The position numbers and the translations under genes are program-made. The notes beneath the pieces were generated by a model. It did no database searches and had not been told where the DNA came from. It saw nothing but the letters and a program-made list of their open reading frames with translations. Below, one piece after another: positions 2-20,565 of a stretch of DNA of 20,565 bases. The first letter of the stretch is position 1. Every line of letters starts with the position of its first letter. The stretch is from a virus: positions 1 to 20,565 of the IMG/VR virus record IMGVR_UViG_2166559002_000007; one strand, 5' to 3'.

Positions 2-1645
2 GAGCGGGAGCGGAAGGTGGAGAGAATTGTGGCAGGAAACCTCGCCCGCTGGCAGGAAGAAGGTCTGGTGCCGGATATGGAGATCGAACCGGGAGATGAG
101 ACGACACGCCTTGGTCGCGAGCGCGGCTGGACCTATTGGCATCACTTGTTCAATGCGCGGCAGTTGTTACTCCAGGCGATCACCATCAAGACATGGCGCC
201 AGTCATCGGCACCACAACTTGGTTGGCTCAACATTGCAAAGATGGCGGATTTCAACTCGCGGCTTTGTCGTTGGGCGACATCTCAGGGAGGGGGGCTCGG
301 TGGGCCAAAAGGCGTGTTCTCTAATCAGGCACTGAATACCTTTTTCAATTATGCAACCCGTACATGGGCAGGTTTTGGTCCCTCATCGTTCAAGATGGCA
401 GAAGTGGCGCTACCCTCTGTTGAACGCTCTGTCATTTCATCAACGGCAGATAAGCCTACGCAAGATTGCGAGTATTGGGTAACCGACCCTCCTTACGCGG
501 ATGCGGTGAATTACCACGAAATCACCGAGTTCTTCATTGCATGGCTGCGCAAGAATCCCCCCAAGCCGTTCGATGAGTGGACATGGGACTCCCGGCGCGC
601 TTTGGCGATCAAGGGCTCCGGTGACGACTTCCGGCGCGGAATGGTAGATGCCTACAAGGCGATGGCTGAACACATGCCGGACAACGGTATGCAATGCGTC
701 ATGTTCACACATCAGGACACTGGCGTCTGGTCCGACATGGTGGGCATCTTCTGGGCGTCGGGTCTGCAAGTCGTGGCAGCCTGGTATATCGCCACCGAGA
801 CCACCTCAGAATTGAAAAAAGGCGGCTATGTGCAGGGCACGGTGATCCTGATGCTGCGCAAGCGCCCGGAAGGCTCCCGCGCTGGCTTCAAGCAGCGCAT
901 CCTGCCCGCGGTGCGGGCCGAGGTCCAGCGTCAGATCGAGACCATGATGCACCTCAACGACGAGGTGAAAGACAAGCACGGCGAACCTGTCTTTAACGAT
1001 TCTGACCTGCAAATGGCTGGCTACGCCGCGGCACTCAAGGTGCTTACCGCCTACACCACCATCGGCGGCGAGGATGTTACCACCTTTGCGCTGCGCCCAC
1101 GCGCAAGGGGTGAAACCACGGTGGTGGATGAGATCGTGCAACAGGCAGCCGAGGCCGCCAACAGCCTGCTGGTGCCCGAAGGGTTGAGCGCGGAAACCTG
1201 GGCCAAGATCAACGGCATCCAGCGTTTCTACCTGCGCATGATGGACATGGAGACCACCGGCGCCAGCAAGCTGGACAACTACCAAAACTTCGCTAAAGCC
1301 TTCCGGGTGCAGGACTACACCAGGGTGATGGGCAACATGAAGGCCAACAAAGCCCGGCTCAAACGCATCACCGAGTTCAAGTCCCGTGACCTCACTGATA
1401 GCACCGAGATCGGTCCCACCTGGCTAGGAAGGCTCATTATCGGCCTGCAACAACTGCTGGCAGAAACCGAACCCCAGGTCGTGATCGGACAGTTGCAAGA
1501 GGACCTACCGGACTTCCTCGACATCCGACCGCTGCTGATCGACATGCTCGCCTTTATCGAGCGCAAGGCGCCCGAACCTGAAGTGCGCGACGCCGCAGAA
1601 GTCCTTAGGGGGCGGTTGAAGAACTTGCGCGCCCTGGGGCAATAG
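2..1645 (+). CDS. DUF1156-type adenine-specific DNA methyltransferase, 5'-truncated
   Basis: This is the C-terminal part of a large adenine DNA methylase that would mark host DNA in a defence cassette. The frame is open to the window edge, so the GTG at 17 is probably internal. The N-terminal DUF1156 region and zinc ribbon typical of the family are absent and should lie to the left. The stretch LARWQEEGLVPDMEIEPGD and the following GWTYWHHLFNARQLLL are family hallmarks. The catalytic motif IV DPPY is at 485-496 (residues 157-160 from the GTG) and is followed by ADAVNYHEITEFFIAWLRKNPP-like family sequence. About 540 residues are seen, against roughly 900-1000 in full-length relatives (from memory). 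The helicase gene follows on the same strand after 25 bp, so they are probably co-transcribed. The family call is strong; the exact defence type is inferred because the rest of the operon is outside the window. Confidence 0.88.
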   Translation, partial: ERERKVERIVAGNLARWQEEGLVPDMEIEPGDETTRLGRERGWTYWHHLFNARQLLLQAITIKTWRQSSAPQLGWLNIAKMADFNSRLCRWATSQGGGLGGPKGVFSNQALNTFFNYATRTWAGFGPSSFKMAEVALPSVERSVISSTADKPTQDCEYWVTDPPYADAVNYHEITEFFIAWLRKNPPKPFDEWTWDSRRALAIKGSGDDFRRGMVDAYKAMAEHMPDNGMQCVMFTHQDTGVWSDMVGIFWASGLQVVAAWYIATETTSELKKGGYVQGTVILMLRKRPEGSRAGFKQRILPAVRAEVQRQIETMMHLNDEVKDKHGEPVFNDSDLQMAGYAAALKVLTAYTTIGGEDVTTFALRPRARGETTVVDEIVQQAAEAANSLLVPEGLSAETWAKINGIQRFYLRMMDMETTGASKLDNYQNFAKAFRVQDYTRVMGNMKANKARLKRITEFKSRDLTDSTEIGPTWLGRLIIGLQQLLAETEPQVVIGQLQEDLPDFLDIRPLLIDMLAFIERKAPEPEVRDAAEVLRGRLKNLRALGQ

Positions 1646-1670
1646 CATGGAAGGCTGGGGTGTTTGAGCG

Positions 1671-4415
1671 ATGACCATTCGCAGATTCTCGTCTCGCACC
1701 CATCGGCTTGATCATTCCTTTCTGCTCGAGCACTTGAAAGGTGCGCGTAGCTACAAGCGCATAGCAGGCTACTTCACCAGTTCCCTGTTCGAGGTGGCTA
1801 ACGAGCTGTTGGAAGAAATCCCAGAAGTAAAGATCGTCTGTAACGTGGATATCCATCCAGATGATCTCAGGGTTGCCCAACTACGTGAAGCCAAAATGCT
1901 CGGCCGCTGGAACGAGCGCGCCTTGGAGGCCGAGGCGCTGCTGAACCGGGATCGCTACCGCAGGCTGGATGCCTTCCTTCAGAAGCACGGCCATGCCGTG
2001 CGCGTGGCACCGGATAGTGTTTGTGGTTTTCTGCACGGGAAGGCGGGTGTGATTGAGCTAGCCGATGGTCGCAAGCTTGGCTTTATCGGCTCCATGAACG
2101 AGACCCGCAGCGGATGGCAACGCCACTATGAAATTCTATGGGAGGACGACTCCCCCGAAGGGGTCGCCTGGATCGAGGCTGAGTTCGAATATCTGTGGAA
2201 CGCGGCGAAGGAACTGCCGAGAGCCGTGATCCGCGAGGTGCGCCGCCGAGGATATCGCCGCGAGGTGCTGTTCGACGAAATTGATGAGGACGATGATCTT
2301 GCACCTGCGGCACTGATCGAATCTCCTCTCTATCGCGAGGGGATGGCCCTGCAGCCCTGGCAACAGGGCTTTCTTACTGAGTGTTTGCGCCATTACCACA
2401 ATCATGGTGTTGTGCGCCTGCTGTTGGCCGATGAAGTCGGCCTGGGCAAGACCTTGTCGCTAGGCACCGCTGCGCTAGCTCTCTGCTTGCTGAGCGATCG
2501 GGAGAACGGTACCCGCAAGCCAGTGGTGATTTTCTCCCCCGCCACCCTCTGCGAACAGTGGCAAACCGAGATGATAGACAAGCTCGGTATCCCCTGCGCC
2601 CGCTGGCATACCCAGAAGAAGGTCTGGCTGGATCACGAAGAGCGCATCATCTCCCCCGCAGGAAGGGAACAGATCGCCCGTTGCCCGCTACGCATTGGCA
2701 TCGTTTCCACCGGGCTGATGATGCGTGACTGCCCTGAGAAAGAGCATTTATTGGGATTGCGCTTTGGGCTGGTCATACTCGACGAAGCTCACAAGGCGCG
2801 CAGTCAACAGGGCTTTGGTCCCAATTCTGGGGAACCCAATAACCTGCTACGCTTTATGCGCGAGATCGCCGCACGGAGCGACCATGTGTTGCTGGGCACG
2901 GCCACACCGATCCAGACTCGGCCTGAGGATCTCTGGGACCTGATGGGCATCCTGCACCAAGGAAAGGGCCACTTCGTGCTTGGCAACGATTTTTCGAAAT
3001 GGCATCGGCCACGGGAGGTTCTGCCCATCCTGTCCGGTGAGCAAGAGATCACCGACCCTGCTTTTGCCTGGGAGCTCTTGCGCTCGCCTCTACCGCTGGT
3101 GGATTCTACCGACGAGCCACGTGCGCGGCGCCTATACAGTGCAATTCGTCAGGATCTGGCGCTTACCAATAACCAATGGCAAACCAGTCAGCCATTCACG
3201 GAACTCACCGAGGAGACACGGGAGATTTTAGAAGACGAACTCTACCGGGAGATTGCCGGGGCTACTTTCTTTCAGCGCGAGAATCCGCTGGTGCGTCACA
3301 TCGTGCTACGCAAGCGAACGGCCCTGGAAGATGCGGGGCTATTGACACGAATTGGTGTGGATGTGCACCCGGACCGAAATCTGACCCGTGACCCCCAACG
3401 CTTTGATGCGCTATTCGAAGGCAAGGCACTGCGCACGAGCGATGATTTTCGTGAGGCATATCGGGAAGCTCGCAATTTTGGCAAGCTACTTTCCAAGCGG
3501 GGTAAGGGTGGCGGCTTCATGAAAAACCTAATGGAGCAACGGATCTGTTCCAGTATTGCGGCAGGACTCAGCACCGCCAAGATGCTTCTCGAAGGGCGTA
3601 CCGTTGAAGAGGAAACTGAAGATCAAGAGATCAAGTTATCGGTAGAAAGCGACGAAGAGCGCTATGTCCTAGAGCGTCTTATTGAGCGCTTGGAAAGGAT
3701 TAGTGAGGATCCAAAACTTCAGGGGGTTGCTCATTACCTGGAACAGGAAAAATGGCTGGAGCACGGTGTCATTATTTTTAGTCAATATTACGACACCGCA
3801 AGATGGGTCGCTGATGCCCTGGCAACCAGATATCCAGATGAGGCAATCGGCCTTTATGCGGGCGCGTCACGAAGTAGACTTTACCAGAAGGCCGATAGTG
3901 TCAATATCGAGCGTGAAACACTGAAAAGGATGGTGGCCGAGCATGAGATCCGAATCATGGTTGCCACCGATGCCGCATGTGAAGGGTTGAACCTACAAAC
4001 CTTAGGGGCGCTTATTAATGTTGATCTGCCGTGGAACCCCACGCGACTCGAGCAGCGTATCGGCCGAATCAAGCGGTTTGGGCAGGCTCGAGAAAAGGTC
4101 GACATGCTCAACCTTGTCAACGAACAGACAGTAGACGAAAAGGTCTACGATCGCTTATCTGAGCGGATGCGAGACCGCTACAACCTGTTCGGATCCTTGC
4201 CGGACACGATAAAGGATGAATGGATAGAGAATATCGAAACGCTCGGCGAGAAAATGGACGAATATATCAACGCCCAGAGGGAAGCGACCGGATTTGACCT
4301 CCGCTACACCACGACCATGCAGCCATCCGATAAGGACTGGAGGAATTGTTCTGATGTCCTGTCACGCAGGGATTTTGCGCAATTGATGAGTGCCGGGTGG
4401 GGAGATAGCCGCTAA
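1671..4415 (+). CDS. PLD-domain SNF2-family helicase of a DUF1156-type defence cassette
   Basis: This is a 914-aa DNA translocase/helicase with an N-terminal phospholipase D-like domain. The PLD half shows H122 and K124 (HGKAG), then G140-S141-x-N143-E144 (GSMNE), a single HKD-type motif as in PLD nucleases. The helicase core has motif I DEVGLGKT at residues 254-261, motif II DEAH at 371-374, motif III GTATPIQT, motif V VATDAACEGLNLQ and motif VI QRIGRIKRFGQ near 795-805. PLD-SNF2 fusions next to DUF1156 methylases occur in DISARM-related defence operons, where they are thought to translocate on invading DNA. The gene starts 25 bp after the methylase stop, with no strong Shine-Dalgarno sequence close to the ATG. 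A 6-codon ORF (1647-1667) lies in the gap, so reinitiation is possible. All motifs look intact. Nuclease activity of the PLD domain is inferred, not shown. Confidence 0.85.
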   Translation: MTIRRFSSRTHRLDHSFLLEHLKGARSYKRIAGYFTSSLFEVANELLEEIPEVKIVCNVDIHPDDLRVAQLREAKMLGRWNERALEAEALLNRDRYRRLDAFLQKHGHAVRVAPDSVCGFLHGKAGVIELADGRKLGFIGSMNETRSGWQRHYEILWEDDSPEGVAWIEAEFEYLWNAAKELPRAVIREVRRRGYRREVLFDEIDEDDDLAPAALIESPLYREGMALQPWQQGFLTECLRHYHNHGVVRLLLADEVGLGKTLSLGTAALALCLLSDRENGTRKPVVIFSPATLCEQWQTEMIDKLGIPCARWHTQKKVWLDHEERIISPAGREQIARCPLRIGIVSTGLMMRDCPEKEHLLGLRFGLVILDEAHKARSQQGFGPNSGEPNNLLRFMREIAARSDHVLLGTATPIQTRPEDLWDLMGILHQGKGHFVLGNDFSKWHRPREVLPILSGEQEITDPAFAWELLRSPLPLVDSTDEPRARRLYSAIRQDLALTNNQWQTSQPFTELTEETREILEDELYREIAGATFFQRENPLVRHIVLRKRTALEDAGLLTRIGVDVHPDRNLTRDPQRFDALFEGKALRTSDDFREAYREARNFGKLLSKRGKGGGFMKNLMEQRICSSIAAGLSTAKMLLEGRTVEEETEDQEIKLSVESDEERYVLERLIERLERISEDPKLQGVAHYLEQEKWLEHGVIIFSQYYDTARWVADALATRYPDEAIGLYAGASRSRLYQKADSVNIERETLKRMVAEHEIRIMVATDAACEGLNLQTLGALINVDLPWNPTRLEQRIGRIKRFGQAREKVDMLNLVNEQTVDEKVYDRLSERMRDRYNLFGSLPDTIKDEWIENIETLGEKMDEYINAQREATGFDLRYTTTMQPSDKDWRNCSDVLSRRDFAQLMSAGWGDSR

Positions 4416-4439
4416 CATCCTATGAGATTCATCGGCTAT
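4405..4439. terminator. Weak stem-loop at the convergent junction of the two defence modules
   Basis: The arms ATAGCCG (4405-4411) and CGGCTAT (4433-4439) are perfectly complementary over 7 bp around a 21-nt loop. The structure spans the stop codons of the helicase and of the subtilisin gene, which face each other 20 bp apart. The position suits a shared bidirectional terminator. The loop is long and there is no proper T-tract, so this may be chance. Confidence 0.25.
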
Positions 4440-6967
4440 ATTTCCGTACTGACTTCAACAGCAGTCCCAACCAGGTTCTCAACAACGGAGTATATGTCGA
4501 TGCTCTCATCGGGCACGTCAATACTGACAATCAGGCTGTAGCGCACCGAATTTTGCCATCGGTCCTGCGCAGTTCGATATTTCCACCAACCGCCCACTGG
4601 ATACACCGCTATGGTGTGCATATCGGCCAAGTCCGCGGCCATGCCTGTCCAGATATCGGAATGTAGCGAGCCTCTCGTACGCAACTGAGGCCCAAGTCGC
4701 CAGCCATCGCTATTCCCTTCAGGGCCAGTATAATCTCCAGTCTCTTCATTCGCCTTTTGATTGATTGATGCCCGGAAATTTTCCAGCGACTGGCCAGGAC
4801 GGATCACTTCGAAGCGAAGCCCGTGAGATTGGTAGCTGTATCGTCGACGATATCCTCGACGCCCCGGGTTGGGCTCAATAAAATAGGACAACGTTACCCG
4901 GAGTTTCACCTCCAACTCCGGCGGCAACTGCTGCAATACCTCGATAGGCCATGGCAACTGGTAGAGCTGCATCTCATTCAGCTTCGGATCATCTGAGTTC
5001 GAAGCATCCGCATCCTTGAAAAAGGGCTGCAGACTGTCCTGAGCAATGAGGGTCAAGGCATGGTTGGCGCTGTATCTGGCCCGCTCGAGATCGGGTACCC
5101 CGTAGCCAACACACCTGAGCATGATCTCCTTGGATAGCTTTGGACTGTGTTGCTGGTGCAAGCGCCCGAAGCGCTCCCACATTTTGGGTGTCCACTCGGC
5201 CGAATGCACTATGAGTGCACGAATGGTTTCAGGCCAGTATTCCGGATATTCAGCCATGAGTATGGCAGCTTGTCTTGAAACCAAAGCACATGCGGCACTG
5301 GTATCGGCAGTGGTCTCGAACAGCTGCCCTGTGGTTCTGCCAGATGTTGTTAACAACGAGATAACGTCAGCGTTCGAAACTTCCGTTGCCTCTGGTGAGA
5401 GCAGCCGATTGCCGCCCTCTGCAACCACATCCGGCTTATAGGGCGCATGCTTCCTCCAGGCCCAGTTAATTGAGGAACGAGTTGCAGGCGCGACATCACC
5501 CGATTCCGCCAAAGGTGACCATCCATTGAAGCTTGGATCGTCGTTAGTAGTCTTTTCAGTATAAGCACCGACCGTGAGCGCATTCCATGCCTGGGCCGGG
5601 TCCTCTATCTGGGCAAGGTGGACTTGCTCCCAGTAATCCAGATCTGGTGAGATTTCCCTATTGTTACCTGCTGAGATCACGAAAAGACGCTGTTTACCGT
5701 CTTCAACACCTGAGGAAAACAGGTCAATCTCAGCAGACCAAGAAGACGGCTGTCCGCCTTCTCTCTCTGGTGCGGCAGTTACCGCGAGCGAGTACACACG
5801 AGAGCAATCCGGCATGCCAATTTCCAGCTTGGCTGCCGTGCCCACAGTAATGGCTCCGTACAATTCAGGATCATTGTTACCGGCAGGGGGTAAAATTCGC
5901 GCTGATTCGATTCGATGATTCAGCATTATTGGCTCACCACTCACTAAGGCCGCATGCAAGTCGCCGAACGCTGCCAATCCCGCCTGTCGGGATCCATGGT
6001 CATTAAACGGAGCAAGAGGATTCGCAGGGTTAAAGTCATCATATCCTGGCCAATCTGGATGCCATCGTTCAGCCAGTTGCTCCGTGCATACCTCACCAAG
6101 AAGAGGATGGTTGTAGTTGACGCCTGTGTCCAAAATCATCACGGTGGTCGAGGCAGTCTCGCTGAGATGAAGCCGTCTTCTCAGGTTCTCAGCCCACTCA
6201 TGCTGTTCTTTGGGCGATAACGCAATAAGGGCATTCGGTGTTTCCTTGGCGGGCCTGAGTTCTTCGAGGTTGGCGATTAATTCCGGTGCTCTTTCAAGCT
6301 GATTGATGGAGGCTTTGATCAGAACCACTACGCTGTCAAAGAAACTGAGGGATGTGTTGCCCAACTGCGCTTCAATCCGCTCAGCTAATTGATGCGCGAT
6401 CTGAATAGGGTCCTCGTCTTCTGGTCGTTTCTTTAACCAAAGCTCCCACCACACCTGCTGCTGTGGATCAGCAGGATAGAGTGATAAATCATCCGTCCAG
6501 AATGACCGTAAATCTGCAAGCTTGATCTCAGAGATGCTATCAATCAGGTTGTGATTTCTGGGCCCTTTTTTTCCATCCTTATCAGGGTCCAAATAGTGCT
6601 CAATTTTTCTCTGAAATACGTCCCGTCTCGACTCAGGAATAAAGACAACGGCCACTTCACGACCATCAACCTTACGACATGATCGAAGCTTAAAATCACG
6701 GCTGGTATCCAGGCTGTCAAGCGGCAGGTCGCAACCTGGCTCTCCTATAATCTCAACATAGATACCAATATCTTCTGTAACAGGTTCAGATGCCTGCTCT
6801 CTTTGACTTTGAAACTGCGAGAGCACACCTGAATACTGGTGAGACAAGGATCGGCCATGTGAAATACGGTCTTGGGGAGGAATGACGGGATTGCGACCAG
6901 TACGACGTGACCGAAAAGCCTCATGGGTCGCAAAACCGTCTAGTAATATATGTGGCTTCCGTTCCAC
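4436..6967 (-). CDS. ietS: Subtilisin-like (S8) serine protease, IetS type
   Basis: This 843-aa protease has an S8 subtilisin domain in the middle and long unassigned flanks. The catalytic residues are visible: D280 in MILDTGVNYNHPLL, H324 in NDHGSRQAG, oxyanion Asn435 in VISAGNNRE and S557 in TTADTSAA. No signal peptide is seen, so it is probably cytoplasmic. Subtilisins paired with an upstream AAA+ ATPase are known as IetA/IetS, first described as an incompatibility factor on an Agrobacterium plasmid and later among anti-phage systems. It starts with GTG, 2 bp after the ATPase stop, with GAGG inside the end of the ATPase gene serving as ribosome site; the two are translationally coupled. 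The substrate is unknown; activation through the ATPase during infection is inferred. The composition is more AT-rich than the phage genes on the same strand. Confidence 0.85.
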   Translation of the reverse strand: MERKPHILLDGFATHEAFRSRRTGRNPVIPPQDRISHGRSLSHQYSGVLSQFQSQREQASEPVTEDIGIYVEIIGEPGCDLPLDSLDTSRDFKLRSCRKVDGREVAVVFIPESRRDVFQRKIEHYLDPDKDGKKGPRNHNLIDSISEIKLADLRSFWTDDLSLYPADPQQQVWWELWLKKRPEDEDPIQIAHQLAERIEAQLGNTSLSFFDSVVVLIKASINQLERAPELIANLEELRPAKETPNALIALSPKEQHEWAENLRRRLHLSETASTTVMILDTGVNYNHPLLGEVCTEQLAERWHPDWPGYDDFNPANPLAPFNDHGSRQAGLAAFGDLHAALVSGEPIMLNHRIESARILPPAGNNDPELYGAITVGTAAKLEIGMPDCSRVYSLAVTAAPEREGGQPSSWSAEIDLFSSGVEDGKQRLFVISAGNNREISPDLDYWEQVHLAQIEDPAQAWNALTVGAYTEKTTNDDPSFNGWSPLAESGDVAPATRSSINWAWRKHAPYKPDVVAEGGNRLLSPEATEVSNADVISLLTTSGRTTGQLFETTADTSAACALVSRQAAILMAEYPEYWPETIRALIVHSAEWTPKMWERFGRLHQQHSPKLSKEIMLRCVGYGVPDLERARYSANHALTLIAQDSLQPFFKDADASNSDDPKLNEMQLYQLPWPIEVLQQLPPELEVKLRVTLSYFIEPNPGRRGYRRRYSYQSHGLRFEVIRPGQSLENFRASINQKANEETGDYTGPEGNSDGWRLGPQLRTRGSLHSDIWTGMAADLADMHTIAVYPVGGWWKYRTAQDRWQNSVRYSLIVSIDVPDESIDIYSVVENLVGTAVEVSTEI

Positions 6968-6969
6968 TT

Positions 6970-7965
6970 TTAGACCTCATATTGTTTTCCGGACTGTCGG
7001 CGTTTAATAGCTTTCGTAATCAATGCTGTGGTAATTTTGGTGTCGTGATGCAAGACGGCTTCTTTCGCCGCGTCTTCACAGGCGCGGGTTACCTCCGCCG
7101 AACTAAGCCCATCTGCTGCGGCAGTGATATCCGCCCACACCAATGAATCGGTATCGAATACGGTCAACCGATTTTCGATGAGCTTTCTGATCTGATCTGG
7201 TCCTGGCTTTTCAAATCGGATGATATCGTCAAACCGACGATAGAGTGCTTTATCAAGCAGCTCGGGATGATTGGTCGCAGCCACTACGATGCTTTCCGAG
7301 GCGTCCTGCTCTACAAATAACAGAAATGAGTTCAGAACCCTGCGGATTTCTCCAACATCATTCTGAGCACCACGCTGCGTTCCGATGGCATCAAATTCAT
7401 CAAACAGATACACAGCACGGGTTTGTTTTATGTGATCGAATATCAATCTAAGCTTGGCCGCTGTTTCTCCCATAAACCGGGTAATCAAGTTGTCAAGAAC
7501 GATGGTGTATAAAGGCAATTTCAGTTCGGTCGCCAAGACTGCGGCTGACATCGTCTTGCCTGTACCAGGAGCCCCAGTAAACAACAACTTACGTCGAGGG
7601 AAAAGCCCGAACTGAGCAAGTCGGTCCTTTTGCCGTTGTTCCAATAGAACTTGCTCTAGACGTTCGCTAACTTCACTGGATAACACTAACTCGCTGCTGC
7701 GAACGGTAGAATGCGTTAGCTCCAGAAGCCCTTTAAGGTCGCCTTTCGGTTGCTGAACCAAAGGGGTAGGCTTGGCGGCCGCAAGCCCCATATTCATTAC
7801 ACCCTTTTGAGCCTTCTCGACCATCATCTTTATGTCGCTCGCCAGTTTATGGTGCCCCTGACGCGCTTCTTTTGCGGCCACCTGCAAAGCAATAGAATAG
7901 AACCGCTGATCGTCGCGATCAGCGTGGCTCTTAAGTAGCGCTTTTATTTGGTCGGCTGTAGCCAT
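6970..7965 (-). CDS. ietA: AAA+ ATPase, IetA type, partner of the subtilisin protease
   Basis: This is a 331-aa ATPase of the classical AAA group (FtsH/spastin-like core). It has Walker A GAPGTGKT with K137, Walker B YLFDEFDAIG with D189-E190, sensor 1 VVAATNHPE, and RRFDD, which carries the arginine finger. The first 110 residues are helical and basic and probably bind the partner or substrate. I chose the ATG at 7965 because AAGGA precedes it by 4 bp; an in-frame TTG at 7992 would add nine residues without a ribosome site. A -10-like TATCAT (complement of 7992-7997) lies 27 bp upstream, but without a good -35. The gene heads a two-gene operon with the protease, 63 bp downstream of the lysozyme stop, with no terminator between, so late phage transcription could read into it. 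A single AAA module suggests a hexamer; a sensing role is inferred. Confidence 0.85.
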   Translation of the reverse strand: MATADQIKALLKSHADRDDQRFYSIALQVAAKEARQGHHKLASDIKMMVEKAQKGVMNMGLAAAKPTPLVQQPKGDLKGLLELTHSTVRSSELVLSSEVSERLEQVLLEQRQKDRLAQFGLFPRRKLLFTGAPGTGKTMSAAVLATELKLPLYTIVLDNLITRFMGETAAKLRLIFDHIKQTRAVYLFDEFDAIGTQRGAQNDVGEIRRVLNSFLLFVEQDASESIVVAATNHPELLDKALYRRFDDIIRFEKPGPDQIRKLIENRLTVFDTDSLVWADITAAADGLSSAEVTRACEDAAKEAVLHHDTKITTALITKAIKRRQSGKQYEV

Positions 7966-7969
7966 GGTT

Positions 7970-7974
7970 TCCTT
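7970..7974 (-). promoter_or_regulatory. Ribosome binding site of ietA (AAGGA)
   Basis: AAGGA on the - strand, 4 bp before the ATG at 7965. It decides the start against the upstream in-frame TTG at 7992. Confidence 0.6.
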
Positions 7975-8028
7975 GTGTCCCCTTGGGTGCAATGATAAAC
8001 GATCTCATCCATCGATAGAACAATAGAT

Positions 8029-8472
8029 TCAGGGCCTTAGGTACATCCCCGACTCGGCAGTACGCCTTTTTACCAAGCCCCTCAAGCGCTTACCTCCAGC
8101 CCACACCCACCGCATGAACTCCCGTGGCACCTGGGCATGCTCCTCCCGGTTCACCTTCCGCCGCAACGTGGACCTCTGAAGCGCCCCAGTGCCGAGGTTG
8201 AAGGTGAAAGAAACGAGCGCATCGAACTGGCCATCAGTCAGTGGCACATTGATTAGCCGCAGGACTCCCCTCTCGGCCCAGCGCACATCGCCTTGCAGCA
8301 GATCCTCGGCCTCCTGCTCGTCGATCCCATCTGCAAACCGTTCTCTCTCATCCTCCCGCACCACATGTCCATAGCCAATAGTGGGATAACCCGCCGGACA
8401 GATGTAGATCGTAGGGCTGAACCCCTCAAACCGCTTGATAAGGTCCAGTCCTTCCTGGGTGATGTGGCGCAT
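8029..8472 (-). CDS. Phage lysozyme (endolysin), glycoside hydrolase family 24
   Basis: This 147-aa muramidase would cut peptidoglycan at the end of the lytic cycle. The N-terminal GLDLIKRFEGF carries the catalytic Glu16 and is followed by YICPAGYPTIGYGH, the GH24 signature. T4 lysozyme uses an E-D-T triad. Here the Asp position appears to be Cys25, a variant I recall from many GH24 phage lysins, while Thr31 is kept. The length is typical. There is no signal peptide or signal-anchor segment, so export should depend on the holin encoded just upstream. The ATG lies 1 bp after the holin stop, so the genes are coupled. It is the last recognisable phage gene on the strand before the defence pair. 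Confidence 0.93.
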   Translation of the reverse strand: MRHITQEGLDLIKRFEGFSPTIYICPAGYPTIGYGHVVREDERERFADGIDEQEAEDLLQGDVRWAERGVLRLINVPLTDGQFDALVSFTFNLGTGALQRSTLRRKVNREEHAQVPREFMRWVWAGGKRLRGLVKRRTAESGMYLRP

Positions 8473-15779: not shown

Positions 15780-18700
15780 CTAACTCCCGAGGTACTGGCG
15801 CACCGTGGCGGCGTTGCGCCGGATGACATTGGTGATGACCTGCTCGCCCACGGGCGTGGCCAGGAAGTCGCCCACCAGGGACTCGTCCACGGCGTTGACC
15901 ACCCGGACGTTGACCTGGGGCTTCTCCCGGGGGCCTGCGTTTGGCACCAGGCCGCCTGTGGCGAAAGCCAGATTCGGACCACGCCAGCGAGGCGCGAAGG
16001 ATCCGCCGTTGATCGCGTCCAGAAAGGCCACGCCCACCTTCTTGACCGAAGCGGCGTTGATCACGTATTCGCCGGCGGAGAGCCGCGCCGGGATGGAGTC
16101 CGACGTGGACGTGCCGGGGCCTGTGACGTAGCCGCCGGTTGCGAAGCCCTTGAACAAGGCACCGACAAAACCGCCAATGCCGCCGCTTAAATTCCCGAAT
16201 AATGACTGGGCCAGCTTCTGCGCGGCGATGCGGTTGATCGAGGCGATGACCGAGCGGGCGAAGTCGCGGAACGCCTCCCTGGCCGACTTGGCTTTGGTGC
16301 CGATTTGCTCGAACATCGTGGCGAAGGCGTCCTGGACCTGGCCTTTGACCCGAACGGCCACCTCGTCGACCACCAGCTTGGTCCTGGCCAGTTCGTTCTT
16401 CCAGGCCTGCACCCGCGCGACTGCCTCGGGGCCGATGGCCCGGGCCGCCTGTTCCATGAGCGGCAGCAGCTTCTCCATCTCGGCGGCGGATTGCTGCTGG
16501 AGACGGACGATCTGCTCGCGCGCCTGAGCCTCTGTGAGCAGCCCCGCCTGCTGCTGGATGCGGATCGCCTCCTGGGCGTTGCGCATCCGCTCGGCGGTCA
16601 GGCGCCATTTCGACTCCAGGGCGTCGAGGTTGGCCTGCGCGGCACGGACAGAGATCAGCCGGTCGATCAGCGAAACGCCGGCGGTGTCGTTCTCCACCAG
16701 CAGCCGGGCGCGCAGATCGCGATAGCTGCGGGCGATGGCCTCGCGGCGCTGGGCGTCGGTCCCGGTGCCTGTAAGGCGGGCCAGTTCGTCGCGGGCCTGG
16801 GCGAGCGCATCACGCAGTTCCCGCTCGGCAGCCGCCGCCTTGCGGGCATTGGCCACTTCCGCCTCGGCACGACGGTTGTTCAGCGCGATCAGGTCGGCCT
16901 CGATCTTGACGATGTCCGCCTTGGCATCGAGCCGTACCCTCTCGTCACTGGCTTCTCTCAGAATGCGCCGCTGCTCGGCCAGGGCCTGCCGTTTGCGGGC
17001 AATCTCGGCGTCGATCTCCCGCTGCTCAATGGCCGTCTTTTGCGCGTAGTAGTCACGGATGGAGATCAGGCGGTCGGCCAGTGCCCGATCGAGGGCCCTG
17101 GAGGCCTGCGCCAACCCTTCCTTGAGGATCCTGAGTTCCGCTTCGCTTTGGCTTTCAGCGAGCTTGAGGCGGGCGCCGTTGTCCTCGACCGAGGGAGTAC
17201 CCTTCGCCTGCGGCCTGGCAAAGAGCCGCTGGCGTTTCCGCTCGTTACGGATACGCGCTGCGATCGCCCGTGCGGTCTCGCCCACGTAGTCGCGCCCCAG
17301 CGATTCCCTGACCGCATCGCCCAGGGCCTTGCCGAATCCGCGCATCTCGGCCCGGCCCGCACGCAGCGTGGCCTTGAGATGCCGGAGCGAGAAGTCGCCC
17401 TCGAACGCCGCCGCGATATCCCGGCCCAGGGCGCGGGCCAGCGCGGCGATGTCGGAGAAGGCCCGCTTGAAGCGGCGCACGAGGAATGCGGCGGTGATCC
17501 CCACCACCTTGCCCATGGCATTGAAGGCGCCGATGATGCCGTTGACGAGCGAGCGCACCGCGCGACCGATGGCATTCACGCCGTCGATCACCGTCTCGCG
17601 CAGGCCCGTCCAGGTCTCGTCGTTGATGCCCACCAGGGAGATCAAGGCATCGACAAAGGCCCCGATCTTCTCGGTGACGAGATCCCAGGCGGCCGAGACG
17701 ATCTGCCCGATGGTGGCGATCTTGCCGCCGAACGCCACCGCCTTCTCCCGGGCCGAGAAGGCGGCGGTGGCCAGCAGCCCCAGGCCGGTGACGATGAGTC
17801 CGATGGGACCGCCGAGCAGCGCCAGCGCGCCGCGCAACAAGCCACCGGCACGGGCCAGCAAGGACGTGCCACGCGCCGCCTCGGTGACGGCGCGCCGCGC
17901 CTTGACTGCTTCCTGCGCCGCACGGGCCAGGTCCGCACGCAAGGCCGTGGTCGCCTTGCCTTGTGCAGCGGCCTGCGCCAGTGCCGCCCGGGCCGCGCGC
18001 AGCCGGGCGGTCGCCTCCGCCTCGATCAGGCGCAGGTTGTTCAGCCGCGCGGCGGCCTCGGCACGGGAAGCGGCCATACTGGCCGCCATGGAGGCCGCCA
18101 TGCGCCCGAAGGCCGCGACCAGCGCGGTGCCGGCCAGCTGGATCAACAGGTCGATGTGGACGGCGAGAAACTGGATCGCCCTGGCCAAACCAGCGGTGAA
18201 TCCGCTCCCCGCGTCCCGCTCGCCGAAGGCGCGCAGGAAGGCGTTTCGGAGCCGTGTCAGCGCCCCGGAGACGGTGTCGGGCAACGCGGCGTATTCCTGC
18301 GCCAGCCGCTCTTTCTGCCCGAGCAGTGCATCGAGCACCACCTCGGCGGTCAGCTTGCCCTGCTGAGCCAACGACCGTAGCGCGCCCAGGGGCACGCCGA
18401 GCCCGTCGGCGATGGCCTGGGCCAGGCGGGGCGTCTGCTCGATGACCGAGTTGAACTCGTCACCGCGCAGCTGTCCGGCGGCCAGCGCCTGGCCAAACTG
18501 GAGCAACGCGCCGCTGGCGGCCTCCGCCGAGGCGCCGGACAGCGCCACCGACTGGCTGATGGCCTCGGTGACCGCCAGGGCATCGCGCTGATCGCGTCCG
18601 AGCGCCCGGATGGAAGGCGCGAGCTTGGCGTAGAGCGTGACCGTCTCGGAAAGCGGCGCCCGGTTGCGCTGGGCGATGTCGAACAGCTCGCGATCGGCCC

Positions 18701-18947
18701 GGTTGAACGCCTCCTGCGAGGTGACCGCCAGCTGCAACCGGGCCTGCAGGCCCTTGTACTGGTCGGCGGCCTCGGCCAGCTCCCGAAGGCCCAGCCCCAC
18801 GCCGATGGCGCCGCCAATGTTGCGGAGCGTGTCGCCGACGCGGCTGGCCTGGTCGCGCAGGCGCGAGAGGCTCCCTTCGATGGAGCGGAAGGCCCGACGC
18901 GTCTCGTCGACGGCGGTGATGAGAATTTGAGCGCGATTGCGTGCCAT
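15780..18947 (-). CDS. Phage tail tape measure protein
   Basis: This 1055-aa protein sets tail length and is ejected with the DNA. The N-terminal half holds the tape-measure domain: SVIEQTPRLAQAIADGLGVP, then LAQQGKLTAEVVLDALL and LPDTVSGALTRLRNAFLRAF. A hydrophobic stretch (GGLLRGALALLGGPIGLIVT and on) lies around residues 365-400. A long Ala/Arg/Glu-rich coiled coil fills about 560-880. The C-terminus GYVTGPGTSTSDSIPARLSA...EYVINAASV is typical. The length predicts a tail of roughly 150 nm by the usual proportionality. The start ATG lacks a recognisable Shine-Dalgarno sequence. The region just upstream is occupied by an opposite-strand gene, so normal coupling to the preceding tail gene has been lost. 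Confidence 0.93.
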   Translation of the reverse strand: MARNRAQILITAVDETRRAFRSIEGSLSRLRDQASRVGDTLRNIGGAIGVGLGLRELAEAADQYKGLQARLQLAVTSQEAFNRADRELFDIAQRNRAPLSETVTLYAKLAPSIRALGRDQRDALAVTEAISQSVALSGASAEAASGALLQFGQALAAGQLRGDEFNSVIEQTPRLAQAIADGLGVPLGALRSLAQQGKLTAEVVLDALLGQKERLAQEYAALPDTVSGALTRLRNAFLRAFGERDAGSGFTAGLARAIQFLAVHIDLLIQLAGTALVAAFGRMAASMAASMAASRAEAAARLNNLRLIEAEATARLRAARAALAQAAAQGKATTALRADLARAAQEAVKARRAVTEAARGTSLLARAGGLLRGALALLGGPIGLIVTGLGLLATAAFSAREKAVAFGGKIATIGQIVSAAWDLVTEKIGAFVDALISLVGINDETWTGLRETVIDGVNAIGRAVRSLVNGIIGAFNAMGKVVGITAAFLVRRFKRAFSDIAALARALGRDIAAAFEGDFSLRHLKATLRAGRAEMRGFGKALGDAVRESLGRDYVGETARAIAARIRNERKRQRLFARPQAKGTPSVEDNGARLKLAESQSEAELRILKEGLAQASRALDRALADRLISIRDYYAQKTAIEQREIDAEIARKRQALAEQRRILREASDERVRLDAKADIVKIEADLIALNNRRAEAEVANARKAAAAERELRDALAQARDELARLTGTGTDAQRREAIARSYRDLRARLLVENDTAGVSLIDRLISVRAAQANLDALESKWRLTAERMRNAQEAIRIQQQAGLLTEAQAREQIVRLQQQSAAEMEKLLPLMEQAARAIGPEAVARVQAWKNELARTKLVVDEVAVRVKGQVQDAFATMFEQIGTKAKSAREAFRDFARSVIASINRIAAQKLAQSLFGNLSGGIGGFVGALFKGFATGGYVTGPGTSTSDSIPARLSAGEYVINAASVKKVGVAFLDAINGGSFAPRWRGPNLAFATGGLVPNAGPREKPQVNVRVVNAVDESLVGDFLATPVGEQVITNVIRRNAATVRQYLGS

Positions 18948-18967
18948 GGATGGTCAAGTGCCGCGTT

Positions 18968-18996
18968 TTGAATGATCAAGGGCCGGGGAATACAAT
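18968..18996 (+). promoter_or_regulatory. Sigma70-like promoter of the COG2958-type gene
   Basis: -35 TTGAAT (18968-18973) and -10 TACAAT (18991-18996) are separated by 17 bp. The -10 matches the consensus in five of six positions and the -35 in four. Transcription would start near 19003, giving a leader of about 20 nt with AGGG before the ATG at 19025. It gives the gene its own, probably constitutive, expression against the direction of the late operon. Confidence 0.65.
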
Positions 18997-19024
18997 TGCT
19001 GGAACAACAATAGGGATGCCCGCG

Positions 19025-19966
19025 ATGGCCTTGGATCTGAGAAACAAAGTGCTTGAGTTCCTGAAGGAGCACCCCGAGCAGAAATACACGGCAAGGCAAA
19101 TTGCCGAGTGGATCTTCGAGCGGTTTCCCGAGGACTGTCAGGCCAAGAAGAACAGCAGCAAGTTCATCACCAGTGATGCGGAGCTGATTCAGCAGCTCGT
19201 AGCAGAGATCGCTTCACAACGCCCCCAGATTCAGAAGAAGCACCCCGAGATCAAGACCACAGGCGGCAGACCACGCCGCTACTACTACTCCGAGAAATCG
19301 GACAGCGACGAAATCGACGATGCGGAAACCACTGGTGCGTCAGTATCCGCGGATGCGCCGACCCAGAAGCTGACAGAGCACGACTTGTATCCGCTTCTCT
19401 CTCATTACCTCTGGAGTGAGTTTGGCATTTACTCGAAGCGGATCGACGAGAAACGCTCATCGAACAAACGTGGCCCCAACGGTAATCGCTGGCTGTATCC
19501 CGATCTGGTCGGCATGGAAGACCTTGGTGCCGATTGGCATCGCATCGTTCGTGACTGCGTTCAGCAGTACTCCGACAAGCGCACCAAGCTCTGGTCGTTC
19601 GAGGTCAAGCTGCTGATCAACCGGTCCAACGTACGCGAGTGTTTTTTCCAGACGGTTTCCAACTCCTCATGGGCCAACTTCGGCTATCTCGTCGCCGCCG
19701 AGATTGGCGGTGGTGACACCCTCAAAGAGCTGCGCATGCTGTCCGCGGCCCATGGCATTGGCTTGATTCAACTGGATCCGGAAAGCCCGAGCGAAAGTCA
19801 GATACTCATCCCGGCCCGGGAACGACAGGAGATCGACTGGGATTCAGCGAATCGCCTGGCAACGGAGAACAAGGACTTTCTGGAGTACATCAAACTCGTC
19901 AAACAGTTCTACCAAACCGGCGAGGCGCGCCCCGGGGATTGGGACATTCCTGGGGGTCTCGCCTGA
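19025..19966 (+). CDS. COG2958/HrgA-like protein: winged helix plus PD-(D/E)XK-like domain
   Basis: This 313-aa protein starts MALDLRNKVLEFLKEHPEQK with a DNA-binding winged-helix segment (residues 1-90, TARQIAEWIFERFPEDC). A charged linker and a C-terminal domain follow, with LYPDLVGME (D160) and LWSFEVKLLI (E193, K195) and Q209 further on, the layout of a PD-(D/E)XK nuclease. It resembles COG2958 proteins, including HrgA, found next to methylase genes. Cutting DNA is inferred from the motifs. ATG 19025 was chosen because AGGG lies 9 bp before it; ATG 19016 would have AGGG directly adjacent, and upstream in-frame Met codons lie before the promoter. It runs opposite to the tail genes, has its own promoter and is less GC-rich, so it looks like prophage cargo. 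Confidence 0.72.
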   Translation: MALDLRNKVLEFLKEHPEQKYTARQIAEWIFERFPEDCQAKKNSSKFITSDAELIQQLVAEIASQRPQIQKKHPEIKTTGGRPRRYYYSEKSDSDEIDDAETTGASVSADAPTQKLTEHDLYPLLSHYLWSEFGIYSKRIDEKRSSNKRGPNGNRWLYPDLVGMEDLGADWHRIVRDCVQQYSDKRTKLWSFEVKLLINRSNVRECFFQTVSNSSWANFGYLVAAEIGGGDTLKELRMLSAAHGIGLIQLDPESPSESQILIPARERQEIDWDSANRLATENKDFLEYIKLVKQFYQTGEARPGDWDIPGGLA

Positions 19967-19969
19967 GTG

Positions 19970-20260
19970 TTATTCCAGAGAGCCCAGCAGCTCGAGCTTC
20001 TCGCCGTCGCGGCTGAAAGTGCCGCGCCAAAGCGTCATGCCATTTAGTGTCTGGCGTGTAATGAGCAATTCAAATCCCTCGCAGTTGCGCTGGCGGGCCG
20101 TGGCAAAGTCGTCGGTGTGGAGTTTTGCTTCGCGGATCAGCGTCGGCGCGATGCTGCGGACCGCATAGATAAAAAGGTCGGTCAAATGCTCCTGGGTCTG
20201 GGGATCGATGTTGTCGGCCTGAATGTCCTCGATCTGGACGCTCTTGTATCGGTTGCTCAT
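19970..20260 (-). CDS. Hypothetical protein, 96 aa, convergent with the COG2958-type gene
   Basis: This 96-aa protein is not recognised. It starts MSNRYKSVQIEDIQADNIDP and ends GEKLELLGSLE; the middle (TDLFIYAVRSIAPTLIREAK) is helical and the end (FELLITRQTLNGMTLWRGTF) looks like beta strands. It has no signal peptide or membrane segment. GGAG lies 7 bp before the ATG, which supports translation. Its stop is 3 bp from the stop of the convergent COG2958-type gene. It could be cargo linked to that gene, such as a regulator or immunity factor, or an ordinary small tail gene of the late operon. Nothing in the sequence decides between them. Confidence 0.6.
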   Translation of the reverse strand: MSNRYKSVQIEDIQADNIDPQTQEHLTDLFIYAVRSIAPTLIREAKLHTDDFATARQRNCEGFELLITRQTLNGMTLWRGTFSRDGEKLELLGSLE

Positions 20261-20342
20261 CAGCGTTCTCCGGTCTGTTTGCGTAGGGACATGAACGCTT
20301 TGTTCGCCTTTTTAATCAAGTAGTTATTGCGCTATCTAGCGA
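20261..20342. other. AT-rich spacer with a small inverted repeat
   Basis: This 82-bp gap separates the 96-aa gene from the cut structural gene. It is clearly more AT-rich than the phage genes and contains CGCTA-TC-TAGCG (20330-20341), a 5-bp inverted repeat just after the structural gene stop. It is compatible with one edge of a cargo insertion and may hold the promoter of the 96-aa gene, but no convincing -35/-10 pair is seen. Confidence 0.3.
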
Positions 20343-20538
20343 CTATTTCCGCAGTTCTTTCTGAATGGCCTGGGCAAGCCGGGGCAGCTTGCGCCGAACG
20401 GCGGATTCCAGATCGAACCGTTTGCGCAGGCGCACCGAGTCGACCAGCACGGCAACGGGGATCTCCTGCCCGCGACGCAGGCGTTTCTGCCCGGTACGCA
20501 GCCGTTCGCCACGCTTGAAGCGCGCAAGCACCCGGTCG
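20343..20538 (-). CDS. C-terminal end of a probable phage structural protein, cut by vector
   Basis: About 65 C-terminal residues are seen, ending FDLESAVRRKLPRLAQAIQK ELRK. The piece is basic and helical and includes LARFKRGERLRTGQKRLRRG then EIPVAVLVDSVRLRKR. The style resembles C-termini of phage minor tail or gp10-like (head-tail connection) proteins, which fits a position upstream of the tape measure, but this is tentative. The frame is open through GTG 20531 into the vector junction, so the true start is outside the clone. Confidence 0.5.
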
Positions 20539-20565
20539 GTGGGATCCCCGGGTACCGAGCTCGAA
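20539..20565. other. Cloning-vector polylinker (fosmid type)
   Basis: GTG GGATCC CCGGGTACCGAGCTCGAA carries adjoining BamHI, SmaI, KpnI and SacI sites and the start of an EcoRI site in the order of the pUC/fosmid polylinker. The GTG before GGATCC fits the half-site left by blunt cloning at the CAC/GTG site of pCC1FOS-type fosmids. It is artificial and not part of the organism. Confidence 0.92.

Follow-up and report, generated by a model that had tools for sequence, protein, structure and literature searches.

The window, by which we mean the whole stretch of DNA analyzed, is an entire viral record of 20565 bases. Read from right to left, it carries a siphophage late operon that begins with a DUF6441 gene and continues through the gene for the tail tape measure protein (TMP), tail proteins, and an endolysin to homologs of IetA and IetS, beyond which a PLD-domain helicase and a cut DUF1156 methyltransferase lie on the other strand. 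Between DUF6441 and TMP sit two convergent genes, hrgA and p96, which are the subject of this analysis. The features on which the argument draws are the following:

2..4415, + strand: DUF1156 methyltransferase (cut at the record start) and PLD-domain helicase (PADLOC DUF1156_MTase and PLD_Helicase; NCBIfam NF042963 and NF042964)
4436..7992, - strand: homologs of IetS and IetA, distal to the endolysin (PADLOC IetA E 1.8e-76, IetS E 3.8e-32)
8029..8472, - strand: endolysin, at the distal late-operon end that in this record lacks hrgA-p96 (phrog_7 E 9e-53)
15780..18947, - strand: TMP, left flank of the insertion (TMP_3 E 2.5e-63; many PHROG tape measure families)
18968..18996, + strand: candidate sigma-70 promoter of hrgA, TTGAAT-17 bp-TACAAT (consensus scan, 9 of 12)
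19025..19966, + strand: hrgA, encoding a 313-aa HrgA-family protein, opposite to the late operon (ORF; start set by alignment with 30 homologs)
19970..20260, - strand: p96, encoding a 96-aa protein, convergent with hrgA and in the direction of the late operon (ORF)
20343..20538, - strand: C-terminal part of the DUF6441 gene, right flank of the insertion, cut by the cloning site (DUF6441 E 2.4e-22; phrog_6367; stop codon 20343-20345)
20539..20565, no strand: cloning vector (fosmid polylinker), not biological

The last 27 bases of the record, GTGGGATCCCCGGGTACCGAGCTCGAA, are identical in six other viral records, and a near-identical stretch is present in cloning-derived plasmid records. We read them as cloning vector, presumably pCC1FOS or a close relative, because in one of those viral records the same junction is followed by a T7 promoter and lacZ-alpha. 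The record thus ends in fosmid vector; therefore, DUF6441 was cut by cloning, and the genes upstream of it lie outside the clone. At least six IMG/VR records besides this one (L253-L258 in our numbering of loci) contain the polylinker, which shows that the collection has vector contamination. The original prediction had treated the lack of major tail protein and tail chaperone genes as an anomaly of the locus, a point that falls away, since their absence is uninformative in a clone that ends at 20539. The relatives L082 and L084 have the major capsid gene first, followed by further ORFs, the major tail protein gene (phrog_807), chaperone-like ORFs, DUF6441, and finally TMP, so that the genes in question are expected upstream of DUF6441. 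We also considered p96 as a tail chaperone or another of the missing tail genes and rejected the idea, as p96 travels with hrgA and the relatives have a separate phrog_807 gene and chaperone-like ORFs of their own.

The two genes form a block of 1395 bases (18948-20342) bounded by the stop codon of DUF6441 (20343) and the start codon of TMP (18947). A + strand gene between TMP and an upstream structural gene, in a block of lower GC content, had been predicted, and both features are borne out: hrgA has a GC content of 56.3% and p96 of 57.0%, compared with 69.4% for TMP and 68.3% for the phage region. The accompanying description of the block as running against the late operon holds for hrgA but not for p96, a - strand gene that the original prediction had missed. 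The site is empty in L084, whose TMP shows 94% identity, and there the stop codon of DUF6441 overlaps the start codon of TMP (...GAACGCTGATGGCACGC); L085 is also empty, with a gap of a few bp. Our survey of relatives joined 26 records found via TMP with 77 found via DUF6441, 10 of them common to both sets, to give 93 distinct records with both genes. The gap between the two genes is 40 bp or less in 80 of the 93, 70-86 bp in three, and 0.7-2.2 kb, filled with other cargo, in ten. The relatives thus do not all share the arrangement of the window, as an ancestral feature would imply. As in a phage moron, the block separates genes that are adjacent in relatives and differs from its flanks in base composition (56-57% versus 66-69% GC). 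We conclude that it is almost certainly cargo inserted into the tail module.

That this would be an unusual place for cargo is right in so far as the two genes abut in most relatives, but the ten exceptions (L082, L091, L094, L096, L099, L107, L112, L197, L213, and L233) carry toxin-antitoxin or nuclease-like cargo at the very same junction. It comprises a Phd antitoxin with a PIN toxin, other PIN toxins with a partner, a TacA-like antitoxin with a GNAT protein, and a NOV_C-like protein, and it is antisense to the late operon in all ten. Because these relatives hold other cargo there, the DUF6441/TMP junction is a real, if uncommonly used, cargo site of which the window is one more occupant; it represents a second, less used site in these phages.

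The window is the sole record with hrgA-p96 at this junction, its right flank runs into vector after only 196 bp, and it comes from a fosmid library, all of which would fit a chimera of cloning or assembly with no real insertion. Both flanks, however, belong to one phage type in correct order and orientation (the DUF6441 and TMP-start DNA are about 90-92% identical to L084/L082), the block sits exactly between one stop codon and the next start codon, and ten other relatives hold cargo at the same point. We regard a chimera as highly improbable.

The insertion may not be free of charge. TMP is coupled to DUF6441 through the overlapping stop and start codons in L084; this coupling is gone in the window, where we looked for a clear ribosome site before TMP and saw none, and its loss would be a cost of the insertion to the phage. 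Two further details concern the edge of the block. An 11-base string, GAACGCTGATG, is common to the start of p96 (window 20250-20275) and the start of TMP in L084 (~5826), and could be either a trace of recombination or a chance match. An apparent ORF remnant upstream of p96 and overlapping its start (RNNYLIKKANKAFMSLRKQTGER) was dismissed as chance, no equivalent frame being present in 23 relatives.

A good promoter for hrgA was part of the original prediction. One sigma-70-like site, matching 9 of 12 consensus positions, does lie at 18968-18996, flanked by the start codons of the divergent genes TMP and hrgA and hence in the right place, but 0.5 such sites are expected by chance in the 4 kb scanned, which leaves it a plausible, not proven, promoter. 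Between the convergent hrgA and p96, no terminator was found, and the RNA spanning the two stop codons is predicted to fold no more stably than shuffled sequence.

To our knowledge, descriptions of HrgA have long been confined to Helicobacter, where its gene is associated with restriction genes and its function is unclear. The protein of the window is assigned to the family by its 44-47% identity, over 96-97% of its length, to plasmid proteins annotated 'HrgA protein', and homologs on Helicobacter plasmids match residues 102-296 at ~36% identity. Its AlphaFold2 model (pLDDT 84.3) places a winged helix in residues 1-93 and a PD-(D/E)xK nuclease-like domain in residues 113-308. The N-terminal part matches winged-helix domains structurally, and the C-terminal domain gives moderate matches to PaqCI and SPO1766 (Z 9.6 each) and EndoMS (Z 8.0), with rmsd 3.3-4.0 over 106-142 residues. 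Foldseek returned no match below E 0.001 (best E not below 0.07), the best PDB hit by sequence was a putative homing endonuclease at only E 0.1, no Pfam family (HARE-HTH, Mrr, and others) reached its gathering score with the window's protein, and no PADLOC model matched. Residues E118, D160, E193, K195, and Q209 are invariant in 31 HrgA sequences down to 38% identity, and the conserved acidic residues and E-x-K motif of PD-(D/E)xK nucleases are present among them. Taken together, motif and predicted fold make HrgA a likely DNA-cutting nuclease.

A scan for HrgA yielded 46 viral loci and 80 loci in bacterial genomes; neither hrgA nor p96 had a match in the isolated phage records searched. Most of the viral loci read hrgA, p96, endolysin, p154, p95, p116, and tail protein, with hrgA transcribed toward the others. 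In other phages, then, the pair usually occupies the distal end of a late operon of this kind, a point that the original prediction did not see. Elsewhere, the pair lies between endolysin and p154 (L035, L037, L161, and L162), and in L165 p96 alone occupies that position, apart from an hrgA at the operon end. In this way p96 tracks hrgA to three different places in late operons. The tail junction is empty in three records whose lysis end holds the pair (L136/L187, L151/L212, and L166/L238).

Directly upstream of hrgA, on the same strand and at a distance of 1-100 bp, are defense genes that vary from locus to locus:

L002, L028: oligonucleotide cyclases (CD-NTase)
L003: BrxL
L021: kinase
L124: type I restriction subunits (REase_I, HsdR)
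L126: PD-T7-3
L129: caspase
L139: Orf5/HEC-06-like

With variable defense genes beside a fixed anchor, this operon end is a prophage defense hotspot, and hrgA-p96 is its fixed border. The corresponding end of the window holds the methyltransferase and PLD helicase, an anti-phage pair, together with IetA and IetS homologs that score well below the NCBIfam equivalog cut-offs, and is without hrgA. In L126 and L139, the same methyltransferase and PLD helicase (73-83% identical) adjoin hrgA-p96. In the window, 36 bp separate the endolysin from the start of the IetA homolog, which is read in the late direction, an odd arrangement for a defense gene meant to act in lysogeny. Outside recognized phage contexts, hrgA follows oligonucleotide-cyclase-like genes by 9-14 bp (L004:5215-5991 and L028:4649-5986) and, in L028, is also preceded by a patatin-like gene, which suggests a link of HrgA with CBASS-like operons. 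The genes just upstream of hrgA-p96, such as those in L009 and L133, are candidates for new defense systems.

These surroundings have to be weighed against the view of hrgA as an orphan restriction-like gene, a selfish or passive passenger at a junction that tolerates any small cargo, with p96 a late gene carried along and no specific role in defense. The junction does accept cargo of quite diverse kinds, for the most part toxin-antitoxin pairs, which may themselves be selfish, and hrgA alone is found in many non-phage settings. Yet hrgA directly follows many different defense genes on their own strand, its catalytic residues are kept intact across distant homologs, as fits selection for activity, and p96 accompanies it to each of its places in the late operon. 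We judge the passenger view unlikely and hold that HrgA probably serves defense.

The second gene is less easily read. Homologs of p96 stand beside hrgA in 79 other loci at 25-52% identity (80 loci with the window), the two stop codons lying a median of 4 bp apart, and p96 without hrgA was never seen among the loci fetched. A short-pattern search for p96 in viral contigs found none of these, and the profile search found many; it was thus the pattern method that missed them. Conversely, hrgA lacks p96 in 47 loci, a few of which have too little downstream sequence to tell. In a quick tree of 112 HrgA proteins, the presence of p96 is clustered (19 changes versus 34.6 in shuffles), and the window's protein falls among mostly phage-borne copies; this placement is without firm support, so the tree does not decide between a move of the pair within one phage lineage and its arrival from outside. 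The AlphaFold2 model of p96 indicates a confident fold (pLDDT 87.5), to which Pfam, PHROGs, NCBIfam, and PADLOC gave no match, and structural comparison left FABP, thioesterase, dynein light chain, and roadblock tied at Z 4-5 (best Z 5.2).

The company of p96 is informative. Late genes of this phage family adjoin hrgA in 60 of 75 loci with p96 versus 2 of 40 without (loci with at least 1.5 kb downstream; Fisher p 8e-16, to be taken only as a guide since the loci are related), and several of the other 15 p96 loci border a spanin, endolysin, or phage peptidase of other phage types. In all 60 scorable loci, p96 is on the late strand, the position expected of an inhibitor gene in a late operon of the Tab/anti-Tab type.

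The same position would suit a structural or lysis-related late protein beside which hrgA merely inserts: p96 usually adjoins the endolysin, and in L165 it is separated from hrgA, with endolysin and p154 as its neighbors. p96 could, indeed, be an ordinary late gene whose own function keeps it beside hrgA. Against this, p96 was absent, as was hrgA, from 20 related phage records found via TMP, some of which may be incomplete, in a search that detected three positive controls; it is, accordingly, not a core late gene. The p96 of the window, moreover, is located next to hrgA among the tail genes, well away from the lysis genes, and has no counterpart in PHROGs. A structural or lysis role thus seems rather improbable to us.

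The strict pairing of p96 with hrgA, and the toxin-antitoxin nature of other cargo at the DUF6441/TMP junction, invite a further reading, in which HrgA is a toxic nuclease, p96 is its antitoxin, and the two are kept together for stability. Unlike the members of most such pairs, however, the two genes converge and are not co-transcribed, and the loci that carry hrgA without p96 imply that HrgA need not be toxic alone. We consider a toxin-antitoxin pair decidedly unlikely. What we do entertain, tentatively, is that p96 restrains HrgA; because p96 is without a recognizable fold, it is position that speaks for this role.

With these alternatives weighed, we find it reasonably likely that the block is a prophage defense moron, a self-contained two-gene cassette with HrgA acting in lysogeny and p96 perhaps restraining it. 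The proposed mechanism would comprise the following steps:

(i) HrgA would be expressed in the lysogen from its own candidate promoter, on the strand opposite to the late genes.

(ii) As a putative DNA-binding nuclease, HrgA would attack incoming DNA, thereby shielding the lysogen and its prophage from other phages.

(iii) Upon induction, p96, read together with the late genes, may restrain HrgA so that the phage spares its own DNA.

(iv) The location of the pair inside the operon may assist this restraint, as late transcription would run head-on through hrgA.

A broader and somewhat unlikely extension is that hrgA-p96 constitutes an undescribed prophage defense module with self-protection, combining a constitutive nuclease with a late-only inhibitor, that forms a widespread hotspot border in proteobacterial siphophages and is movable as a unit. 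The data tie HrgA to defense operons and, in phages, to one small partner; if p96 does restrain HrgA, the pair would give prophages a common means of arming the lysogen that spares their own induction.

Several known systems offer points of comparison. HK97 gp15 is a phage moron in a tail or late operon. Tab, of the Pseudomonas aeruginosa phage JBD26, is an 83-aa protein encoded between the terminase genes that blocks the tape measure protein, and is itself restrained by anti-Tab, so that a prophage defense comes with its inhibitor (PMC10884400). The block of the window resembles HK97 gp15 and Tab in being a small extra gene with its own (here candidate) promoter, placed between genes adjacent in relatives and (here presumably) serving the lysogen; it differs in that hrgA is of nuclease type, lies on the opposite strand, and has a convergent partner. 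Tha, a HEPN RNase, forms with Ith a pair with opposing transcription, and placing the inhibitor under late control failed to rescue induction (PMC11087260). Like Tab/anti-Tab and Tha/Ith, the pair described here would join a prophage defense gene to a gene on the lytic transcript, with opposing transcription as in Tha/Ith. The protein domain types are unrelated to those of either system, and p96 is a putative inhibitor. The Tha/Ith result also cautions that a late-expressed p96 may come too late. P2 and P4 prophages contain hotspots of variable defense genes between fixed phage genes (PMC9122126), an arrangement that the operon end described above shares; it belongs to another phage family, forms the distal part of a late operon in siphophages, and is bounded by the fixed hrgA-p96 pair, and the P2/P4 study makes no mention of HrgA. 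Finally, Helicobacter HrgA is of the same protein family by annotation, but it stands in the place of a restriction enzyme gene, whereas the hrgA of the window is phage cargo that travels with p96.
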